This document shows, piece after piece, positions 48,201-51,580 of a stretch of DNA of 64,000 bases. This DNA is from Rhodococcus pyridinivorans. Lineage in GTDB: Bacteria > Actinomycetota > Actinomycetes > Mycobacteriales > Mycobacteriaceae. The notes under the pieces are model-generated. The model did not search any database. It had not been told where the DNA came from and saw only the letters and a program-made list of their open reading frames with translations. How positions within the stretch are numbered: the first letter of the stretch is position 1; the number at the start of each line of letters is the position of its first letter. The position numbers and the translations under genes are program-made. The stretch lies in NCBI RefSeq assembly GCF_900105195.1, contig NZ_FNRX01000002.1:1798001-1862000 (forward strand). The letters are read 5' to 3'.

Positions 48201-51103
48201 CGGTGTGGGAGTTCTGGTCGGCGCTCACCTCCGGCGCCCGCCTGGTGATCGCCACCGCCGACGGACACCGCGATCCCGACTATCTGCTCGCGTTGTTGCG
48301 CGACGAGCAGGTGACCACGCTGCACACCGTTCCGTCCATGCTGTCGATGCTGATGACGGTCGCGGCCGGTCCGGTGGCGCCGTCGCTGCGGCGGATCCTC
48401 GCGATCGGTGAGGCGCTGCCCGCGGCGGTGGCCCAGCAGTTCCGCGCGGACAACACCGCGACGCTGTACAACCTCTACGGACCGACCGAGGCCGCGGTCT
48501 CGGTGACCGTCCACGAGGTCGACGATGCCGACCGGACCGTCGTCCCGATCGGTGTGCCAGAGTGGAACACCGCCGTCTACGTCCTCGACGACCGGCTGCG
48601 GCCGGTGGCGCCGGGTGTCGCCGGCGAGCTGTACCTCGCGGGTGCCCAGCTCGCGCGGGGCTACCACGACCGTCCCGACCTCACCGCGGACCGGTTCGTC
48701 GCCGACCCGTACAGGCGCGGACGCATGTACCGCACGGGCGACATCGTCCGGTGGAACCGTGCCGGTCGCCTCGAATACCTCGACCGCGCCGACTTCCAGG
48801 TCAAGGTGCGCGGTTACCGCATCGAACTCGGCGAGGTCGAGACCGTCCTGCGCGAGCTGCCGGGCGTGAAGGACGTCGCCGTCCTGGTGCGCAGCACCGC
48901 CCACCTCGGCGACCGGCTCGTCGCGTACATCGTGCCGGCCGCCGACTCGTTCGACGCCGGTGCGACACGGGCGTTCGACGCCGGTGCGACACGGGCGTTC
49001 GACGCCGGTGCGACACGGACGGCGCTCGCGGAGCGACTGCCGTCGTACATGGTGCCGTCGGCGTTCGTCGAACTCGACGCGCTGCCGCTGAACACCAACG
49101 GCAAGCTCGACCGGCGGGCCCTGCCCGACCCCGAACTCGACATGGGGCAGTTCCGCGCCCCGACCGATCCCGTCGAGGAGATCGTGGCCGCGACCGTCGC
49201 CGAACTGCTCGGCGTCGAGCGGGCCGGCCTCGACGACGATTTCTTCGAACTCGGCGGCAACTCGCTGCTCGCGACGCAGCTCGCCGCCCGGCTCGGTGCC
49301 GCACTCGACACCCGCGTGCCGGTCCGGACCGTCTTCGAGTCGTCCACGGTGGTCGCGCTCGCCGCCCGCCTCCGGCCGTCGGTGGGCGAGGGTGCCCGTC
49401 CGGCGCTCACGACCGTCCCGCGTCCCGAGCAGGTGCCGCTGTCGCTCGCACAGCAGCGCATGTGGACCCTGAACCGGGTCGATCCGGAATCGGGTGTCTA
49501 CAACATCCCCGTCGCCGTGCGCCTGACCGGTGCGCTCGACGTGGACGCCCTGCGCGCCGCGGTCGCCGACCTGTTCGCACGACACGAGGTGCTGCGCACC
49601 GTCTACCCGGACAGCGGTGACGGTCCGGTGCAGGTCGTGCTGCCGGTTGCGCAGGCCGTGCCCGAGCTCACCCCGGTGGACGTGACCACCGACGAACTCG
49701 TCGACCGTCTCACCGAGATCCTCGGCAGCGGATTCGACGTGACGGCATCGGTCCCGCCGGTGCGGGTCGCGTTGTTGCGTCTCGACGCCGCCGAACACGT
49801 CCTCGCGGTCGTCGCGCACCACATCAGTGCCGACGGGTACTCGATGCGCCCGCTCGTGCGCGACGTCATGACCGCCTATCTCGCGCATACCGCGGGGGAG
49901 ACCCCGGGCTGGGCGCCGCTCGAGGTCCAGTACGCCGACTACACGCTGTGGCAGCAGAGCGTTCTCGGTTCCGAGGACGATCCCGAGAGCGAGCTGTCGC
50001 GTCAGCTCGACTACTGGGCCGACGAACTCTCCGGTGTCCCGGAGGTTCTCGCCCTGCCCACGGATCGTCCGCGCCCCGCCCGCCAGTCGACCGTCGGTGA
50101 GTCGTTCACCTTCACGATCGGTGAGGAACTCGCGCAGCGGATCGAGAAGACCGCCCGCGAGCACAACGCAACGGTCTTCATGACGATGCACGCCGCCTTC
50201 GCGGTGCTGCTCGCCCGCCTGTCGGGCAGCGAGGACATCGCGGTGGGCACGCCGACCGCCGGTCGTGGTGAGGAAGCGCTCGACGACCTCGTCGGCATGT
50301 TCGTCAACACCCTCGTGCTCCGCACCCGGGTGGCCGGCTCGGCGACCTTCGCGGAGCTGCTCGCTCAGGCCAAGGAGAAGGATCTCGCGGCGTTCGGCAA
50401 CGCCGATGTGCCGTTCGAGCGGGTCGTCGAACGTCTCGGTGTGCGGCGCAACAGCGCGTACACCCCGCTGTTCCAGGCGATGCTCACCTTCCAGAACATC
50501 GACACCGGCACCTTCGCCCTGCCGGGGCTCGAGGTGGCCGCGCTCGAGACGGGAGCCGACCAGGCGAAGTTCGACCTCCAGTGCACGGTGGTCGAACGGT
50601 TCTCCGAGTCGGGAGCGCTGACCGCACTCGATGTGACCTTCACCTACGCCACGGCACTGTTCGACGCCGCGACGGTCGAGACCTTCGGCGACCGCTTCGT
50701 CCGGATCCTCGAGACCGTCAGCGCCGACCCGCAGGTCGTCCTCCGTTCGCTCGACATCCGCACGGATGCCGAGCGGGCGCGGGCGGCCCGGCCGAAGAAG
50801 GCACGCACCGTCGCCGATCTGCCGGCACTCGTGGCGGCAGCGGCTGCCGTGGCCCCGGACACCGTCGCCTTCCGGCACGGTGAGCGCGAAGTCACACTCG
50901 GCGAGTTCGCACAGCGTCTGGACACCATGGCAACCACGACCGGCGGTGCGCTCACCGCAGAAGCACTCGTGTCGGTGGTTTTGAACGGGCTCGTACCGGG
51001 GATGCTGCCCCAACTCGGCGCCGACGGTCTCGCACAGTTGGTGCGCGATGTGATCGCCGTCGCGGTAGGCGTCGATGCCGACGCGGTGGGAGACGCGGAT
51101 TAG
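30218..51103 (+). CDS. Giant nonribosomal peptide synthetase, modules 1-6 plus C domain of module 7
   Basis: A 6961-residue multimodular NRPS with the order C-A-T six times, then C and a tail. C domain motifs: HHLALDG (residue 152), HHIAADG (1202), HHISADG (2256), HHIAADG (3326), HHIAADG (4377), HHISADG (5459), HHISADG (6534). A-domain P-loops start near residues 626, 1693, 2745, 3816, 4868 and 5948. Phosphopantetheine serines, all in GGNSL, are 1018, 2072, 3142, 4195, 5275 and 6349. By hand alignment to GrsA the A-domain pockets read: A1 DVWDFILVS; A2 DPLVNGAIV; A3 DVWHFSLVD (serine); A4 same as A2; A5 DFWNIGMVH (threonine); A6 DLWHLILVS. The first C domain ([11 protein letters not shown]) resembles DhbF/EntF-type domains that accept an acyl group. 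No epimerisation or thioesterase domain is present. The start is a TTG after GAGAGAGG. The protein ends with a non-catalytic tail, and its missing A domain is on the next protein. Confidence 0.96.
48950..49021 (+). repeat. Three tandem copies of a 24-base unit inside A domain 6
   Basis: The unit TTCGACGCCGGTGCGACACG plus GGCG is repeated three times in frame (48950-48973, 48974-48997, 48998-49021; the last copy differs by one base). It encodes [24 protein letters not shown] in the C-terminal subdomain of A6, between the ligase body and the [10 protein letters not shown] segment. The other nine A domains have no such repeat. Confidence 0.95.
50800..51100 (+). other. C-terminal docking-like tail of the first NRPS
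   Basis: About 100 residues follow the seventh C domain. The first part ([20 protein letters not shown]) resembles the very beginning of an A domain, but no A-domain body follows. The rest is a helical stretch ([20 protein letters not shown], then [19 protein letters not shown]). The N-terminus of the next protein has a related layout (51245 to about 51580). Such paired tails may hold the two proteins together so that the C domain meets its A domain. Confidence 0.6.
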
Positions 51104-51153
51104 TCCTGTGTCGGTCACTTCGGGATAATGGAAGATCGGCTGTCGTTCGACTG

Positions 51154-51174
51154 CCCGGCCAGTACGGTGCCGGG
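51154..51174 (+). other. Hairpin between the two NRPS genes
   Basis: CCCGGC and GCCGGG form a six-pair stem with a nine-base loop in the 141-base gap between the NRPS genes. There is no T tract. The gap otherwise contains only the ribosome site AGGAGG near 51231-51236. The two genes are most likely one transcript, and the hairpin may only tune it. Confidence 0.3.
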
Positions 51175-51244
51175 TGGCAGCGGGGGGCGGTGTCGCGTGC
51201 GCAGCGTGATGCCGAGCGCAGGTTATTTCAGGAGGCTGACGTAG

Positions 51245-51580
51245 ATGACGGGTGACATGGCGGGCAAGCCGGCGCTGGCGATCGAGGACCTTCCCCGGTT
51301 GCTCGCCGCCGTCGCGGAGATCGAACCCGACCGCGTCGCCCTCACCGACGGTGACACCCGTATCGGCTACGCGCGCCTGCGCGACGAGATCGCCACGCTC
51401 GACACCGCGATGGGTGGCGCGCTCGGTTTCGACGCGCTGTTCCCCGTCGTCCTGTCGAACATCGCGCCCGCTCTGCTGGGTGCTCCGGGTCTCGCGGGGG
51501 TGGTCGACGCCCTGCTGGCCGACGCCGTCGAGGTGCTCGGCGACGATGCAGCAGCACCGGCCACGTTCGATCCCGATACA
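51245..51580 (+). other. N-terminal docking-like segment of the second NRPS
   Basis: Residues 1 to about 112 precede the true A domain. They read IEDLPRLLAAVAEIEPDRVA, then MGGALGFDALFPVVLSNIAP and LAGVVDALLADAVEVLGDDA. This mirrors, block by block, the tail of the first NRPS ([39 protein letters not shown]). The start of the real A domain follows at LVARFDAQVARTPDAVALEF. Confidence 0.6.

Follow-up and report, generated by a model that had tools for sequence, protein, structure and literature searches.

The window analysed here is a stretch of 64,000 nucleotides from a Rhodococcus genome (referred to below as G000), and the features at the locus of interest are listed in Table 1. Two very large NRPS genes follow one another on the forward strand. 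Gene 1 closes with a C domain (Pfam E 1.2e-40, over the C half of the domain) and a tail, and gene 2 opens with a second tail followed directly by an A domain; both the coordinates and the position of the cut are as the preliminary description of this DNA had given them. Since an intact C domain and an intact A domain flank the cut, one module is divided between its C and A domains, an arrangement that we denote C//A. A simple consensus scan of the gap between the two genes gave no terminator-like or promoter-like site.

Table 1. Features of the split NRPS locus; positions are those of the window except in the first row.
Feature	Position	Strand	Remarks
Window	G000:C2:1798001-1862000		within a 5.26-Mb Rhodococcus genome
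Gene 1, NRPS subunit, 6961 aa	30218..51103	+	starts and ends with C domains; start codon uncertain
Last C domain of gene 1 (first half of the split module)	49430..50779	+	HH...DG motif present
C-tail, A-front-derived 'a' domain, ~105 residues	50786..51100	+	profile core 50780-51088
TAG stop of gene 1	51101-51103	+
Intergenic gap between genes 1 and 2	51104..51244	+
AGGAGG, ribosome-binding-site-like	51230..51235	+	9 nt before the gene 2 ATG
Gene 2, NRPS subunit, 7248 aa in the genome	51245..64000	+	ATG at 51245; begins with tail, then A domain; extends past the window
N-tail, second 'a' domain copy, ~110 residues	51245..51583	+	profile core 51251-51568
Complete A domain (AMP-binding) after the N-tail (second half of the split module)	51593..52639	+
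AMP-binding_C of the first A domain of gene 2	52811..52990	+

Two more C//A joints lie in the same cluster downstream of the window, one at G000:C2:1870101-1870988 and the other where an ORF ends with its stop at 1878645 (L001, L002). The 7248- and 2503-residue subunits end in a C domain and a long degenerate A half lacking TSGSTG, and the genes that follow them open with an Arg/Pro-rich stretch and then an A domain. The first of these long tails is found at 60–100% identity in nine of the 18 genomes of the genus. The 2503- and 1988-residue subunits, within G000:C2:1871134-1884727 (L001, L002), show no difference between their first A domains over the 330 residues compared, apparently a sign of recent duplication or conversion.

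Genes 1 and 2 share a frame in this genome, with TAG codons at 51101 and 51242, and the preliminary description had asked whether a sequencing error might have divided a single gene. The split survives comparison within the genus. The tail pair is present in 17 of the 18 genomes, and all 17 pairs have a stop codon, then 0–143 nt, a GAGG-type site and an ATG (with GGAGG before the gene 2 start in 14 of them), and in six of the 17 the two genes are out of frame with each other. The conserved stop, start and GAGG together with the differing frames rule out a sequencing error or a pseudogene. The eighteenth genome, in which the pair was not found, is 75% complete and in about 950 contigs, and has a weak match in a frame that looks transporter-like by eye.

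The two tails are clearly related to each other, and the three blocks named in the preliminary description (an A-like start, a GGAL block and a helical block) are present in both. The BLOSUM62 local score of the C-tail against the N-tail is 152 compared to a shuffle maximum of 72; the front block alone scores 73 (shuffle maximum 54) and the GGAL-helical block alone 81 (shuffle maximum 64), and in each comparison none of 5000 shuffles reaches the observed score. Profile-profile alignment with hhalign gives 99.7% over 97 columns for the genus C-tail and N-tail profiles, and 99.9% over 101 columns for the family-wide profiles. Chance likeness is ruled out by the shuffles and these alignments, and the tails have not proved confined to one strain, as had been considered at the outset. 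Seven columns are invariant across the 34 tails of 17 genomes.

Both tails evidently derive from the front ~70–100 residues of an A domain, without its catalytic motifs. First, when PDB sequences are searched with the tail profile, the top matches fall at the beginning of NRPS A domains, led by LgrA (E 7.5e-8, profile positions 17–71). Secondly, hhalign of the C- and N-tails against 54 A fronts of this genome scores 63.6 and 62.5, compared to maxima of 17.6 and 19.7 among 100 column shuffles each, none of which reaches the observed value. The duplicated, non-catalytic A-domain front of the preliminary description is thereby borne out, with weaker support from the fold comparison. That its helical block stands apart from this front is not clear, as the sequence comparisons continue from the A front into it, although by fold the last tail helix seems to be paired with a stretch further along the A domain. 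At about 100 residues and without TSGSTG, the tails are not complete A domains, and neither Pfam nor NCBIfam contains a family that they match above its own cut-off. A helical domain with separate relatives was also considered: Pfam EAD1 matches 4 of 34 members weakly (best E 0.002; the match of the one member shown is under the EAD1 cut-off), which we take as chance. Two AlphaFold2 runs, each with 11 paired sequences, predict for both tails a helix, a beta-hairpin and three helices, with an extra short helix in the N-tail, mostly at pLDDT 75–90. The predicted fold matches mostly adenylate-forming enzymes, a listing that is not such as to exclude the known docking classes.

A profile search of 201 genomes in 31 genera of the family returned many strong matches, and the context of the copies (E <= 1e-8) was recorded at 92 loci, all of one family and not independent of each other, with at most 23 candidates scored per genome and the matches of genomes G141, G105 and G074 left out of the set. 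Among the matches listed, the 153 copies classified comprise 59 at the C-terminus, 64 at the N-terminus, 21 internal and 9 free-standing. Their placement, again among the matches listed, is strikingly uniform: all 59 C-terminal copies stand behind a C domain, 63 of the 64 N-terminal copies stand ahead of an A domain (the exception is a broken frame), all 21 internal copies lie between C and A domains, and the nine free-standing copies adjoin neither. Of 27 copies first called internal, six were reassigned as N-terminal because a C-tail stop lies just upstream; the C-terminal copy of L111 is counted as free-standing, and two L051 copies in a broken frame as C- and N-terminal.

The paired occurrence at C//A splits that the preliminary description proposed to look for is found in many genomes of the family, and with it the facing ends that are characteristic of NRPS docking domains. 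Among the matches listed, 58 of the 59 C-tails have a downstream N-tail on the same strand, giving 58 pairs in 57 genomes; measured from domain to domain, 56 are within 251 nt, one is at 832 nt and one at 10.7 kb. This last gap, in G044, holds at least one permease-like gene (by eye). A separate scan of named genomes identified 49 N-tail loci in Rhodococcus, Prescottella, Rhodococcoides and Antrihabitans, with a C-tail just upstream of 45; the other four are in genomes that also hold a pair, and three of these four come after an NRPS ending in a bare C domain. A C-tail is also found in a Nocardia protein, and the window's own C-tail, over the 98 residues searched, agrees at every position with a protein labelled R. 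pyridinivorans. Wider samples, searched at E <= 1e-13, gave five matching genomes in the order (249 genomes, 69 genera) and four in the class (296 genomes, 115 genera), in both cases counting the window's own genome and all inside its own family; an ordinary A front can give weaker matches.

Seven of 123 tails, six N-tails and one C-tail among the matches listed, are unpaired at their own locus, and each of the six genomes with an N-tail lacking an adjoining C-tail has a C-tail elsewhere. The N-tail genes without an adjoining C-tail at L089, L099, L165, L166, L169 and L170 sit after a gene that resembles an antigen-85-like hydrolase by eye; of the NRPSs covered upstream of this hydrolase gene, three have a bare C domain at their end (L165, L166, L169) and one has a T domain there (L170). 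Five of the genomes covered have a second N-tail gene beside one C-tail, with N-tails that are 94% identical in G058 and 40–49% identical in the others. In G132 (L103, L206, L207) the only C-tail and the only N-tail found sit on different contigs; the next gene downstream of the C-tail has no N-tail found by the profile, and a pnp-like gene (by eye) precedes the one that carries the N-tail. The second N-tail genes and the distant N-tail of G132 could be alternative or distant acceptors.

The idea of a docking pair is in keeping with the pairing at C//A joints, but such a pair is not the sole form of the domain, since there are also fused single copies and free-standing proteins. In the fused form, denoted C-a-A, the same domain is present as a single copy without a partner between a C and an A domain (21 places, among the matches listed); its best named relative is a Williamsia sp. 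protein, and three genomes (G199, G040 and G118) have single copies at two joints of one protein. No C- or N-tail was seen in the 18 genomes with fused copies, among the loci from the matches listed. The free-standing copies are proteins of ~113 residues in nine Rhodococcus genomes, with 10 public clusters (79 sequences), of which the three with a name are labelled hypothetical protein or non-ribosomal peptide synthetase. The window's own genome has one at G000:C2:3785217-3785555 on the minus strand (L065:2218-2556), beside a gene that is carboxylesterase-like by eye.

A tree of 172 rows, A fronts included, illustrates the relationships among these forms, and several patterns emerge. First, the A fronts fall outside the tails and fused copies (100/100). 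Secondly, the 57 C-tails form one clade (89/74), and the 62 N-tails form another together with eight free-standing copies (100/95). Thirdly, the fused copies are of two kinds, one of five rows that is nearest to the A fronts, and one of 16 rows that is the sister group to the tails. A second split pair (L079, L080) groups with this second kind of fused copies (99/98), and its position inside the internal clade implies at least two splits, each leaving copies on both sides. The root is unsure because of the few columns and the long outgroup branch, and the tree, with its few columns, implies that the fused form came first and was followed by at least two splits.

Random thinning left 22 neighbours of C-tails, 22 of N-tails and, for each kind, 40 background domains for a comparison of the neighbouring domains. 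The C domains that precede C-tails, those that precede one of the fused-copy kinds and that of the cluster's third C//A joint form one group (86/90). L079 and L080 have sister N-tails (100/100), but the A domains behind these come from different clades, as if the A domains had been exchanged. In 12 sister-species pairs dN/dS is 0.03–0.27 for the C-tail and 0.06–0.39 for the N-tail, indicating that both tails are under purifying selection; the medians over all pairs with dS of 0.1–1.2 are 0.43 and 0.44, so that the longer-term constraint is moderate (L154, with a broken frame, was left out of this set). C-tail and N-tail distances correlate with r of 0.70 over 45 pairs, the species tree being ignored, and tail-tail covariation over the 45 pairs (44 named loci and the window, weighted Neff about 24) gave no clear picture.

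We consider it likely that the tails are a new, A-domain-derived cognate docking pair for an NRPS module cut at its C-A joint, a reading favoured by where the tails lie, how they pair, their divergence into two types, their repeated origin and the selection on them. Each tail would be a shrunken, non-catalytic copy of the first ~70–100 residues of an A domain. The domain would originally have been single and acted in cis between the C and A domains of one megasynthase, a state that some genomes appear to keep, until the gene was split at that joint with one copy left on each side. These copies would then have diverged into a C-terminal (donor) type and an N-terminal (acceptor) type, which bind as a pseudo-symmetric heterodimer; the bound tails would keep the final C domain of protein 1 in contact with the leading A domain of protein 2, and the module would thus regain its C-A platform in trans. 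The AlphaFold2 models of the tethered pair (pTM 0.41 and 0.43) contain no confident interface, and speak neither for nor against one; in view of this and of the partnerless fused form, docking is an inference, as are the contact between the tails, their geometry and the need of the assembly for them. The fused C-a-A form, with one copy and no partner, suggests that the domain can serve some purpose, or can at least be retained, where no docking takes place; it may have another role there or none, and self-association in that setting is a guess.

The main rival is that each tail caps the hydrophobic C-A face of its own side, the C-tail covering the C domain and the N-tail the A domain. The face would have been exposed by the split, the tail would keep the free subunit soluble, and the subunits would meet by other contacts. 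Such a cap would be well suited to a piece that is the A-domain front, which is the part following the C-A linker in an ordinary module, and it would be consistent with the two further C//A joints of the cluster, where the C side alone bears a much longer, dead A half, with the one copy in the fused form, and with the lack of a tail-tail interface in the models of the tethered pair. However, caps need neither homology on the two sides nor pairing, yet nearly every C-tail has its N-tail and the two types each fall in their own clade, and the A domain after the N-tail is complete and already has a front of its own. We regard capping as unlikely.

A less probable explanation, to which we give little weight, is that the domain is a homotypic dimerisation piece that joins megasynthases into larger assemblies, including those with the fused form, and that the split pair is just one use of it. 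The fused single copies, the proteins with copies at two joints and the nine free-standing copies must, if they have a partner at all, bind something other than an opposite tail, but the separate donor and acceptor clades and the type-specific motifs (by eye) suggest a heterotypic pair. That the tails are functionless relics of a partial duplication that split the gene would fit their nature as degenerate A-front duplicates and the frame still shared by genes 1 and 2 in this genome, but is very improbable given dN/dS of 0.03–0.39 in the sister pairs, the 58 pairs in 57 genomes and the seven invariant columns.

Extending the docking interpretation, we speculate, with considerable doubt, that the tails represent a new class of docking domain made from a shrunken A front, which began as a self-associating insert in the C-A linker and became a heterotypic pair after at least two splits. 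The free-standing Rhodococcus copies would then be diffusible plugs on the donor tail, and a second N-tail gene would allow a single donor to supply two assembly lines.

The arrangement can be compared to several known systems, each as described in the parts of the cited sources available. NRPS docking domains are typically between modules (PMC8362031), and the COM, three-helix PAX and beta-hairpin classes are at E/C or PCP/C junctions or, for the beta-hairpin, before a C or Cy domain (PMC9113145). The tails resemble these in being matched elements on subunits that follow one another in the pathway, C-terminal on the first and N-terminal on the second, but differ in lying at C//A within a module (C-tails follow C domains and N-tails, with the one exception, precede A domains), in being homologous to each other, in their length of ~100 residues and in their origin from a catalytic domain. 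Trans-AT PKS split modules, docked by four-helix bundle and DHD domains, also have the two halves of one module on different proteins (PMC9113145); they belong to a different enzyme class, and the tails are A-domain-derived. SyrB1 and albicidin likewise have a C domain and the A domain that serves it on different proteins, with a separate [A-T] unit supplying an assembly line whose own A domain is missing or inactive (PMC8949500), although the split here is linear with homologous tails on both sides. AMP-binding (PF00501) A domains themselves have a front of ~70–100 residues homologous to the tails, which carry no core catalytic motif. We found no description of such an element in the passages of the open-licence literature covered, a scope that most subscription papers fall outside, and the word docking is absent from the main text of PMC5550956, on Rhodococcus gene clusters.

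The closest parallel is an engineered one. In type S NRPSs the C-A linker, with its W-N motif, is cut at the same site as here and rejoined by synthetic zippers (PMC8362031, PMC10443035, in the text available); WN is shown by 8 of the 11 ordinary joints of genes 1 and 2, and the C-tail occupies that place. The zippers are artificial coiled coils, whereas the tails are a natural pair. If proven, docking by the tails would be a natural coupler at the joint that engineers now join with artificial zippers, and a natural family-wide pair together with its fused and split relatives would give parts, and a test case, for re-forming the C-A platform in trans. It would also show how a docking pair can arise from a domain of the enzyme itself.
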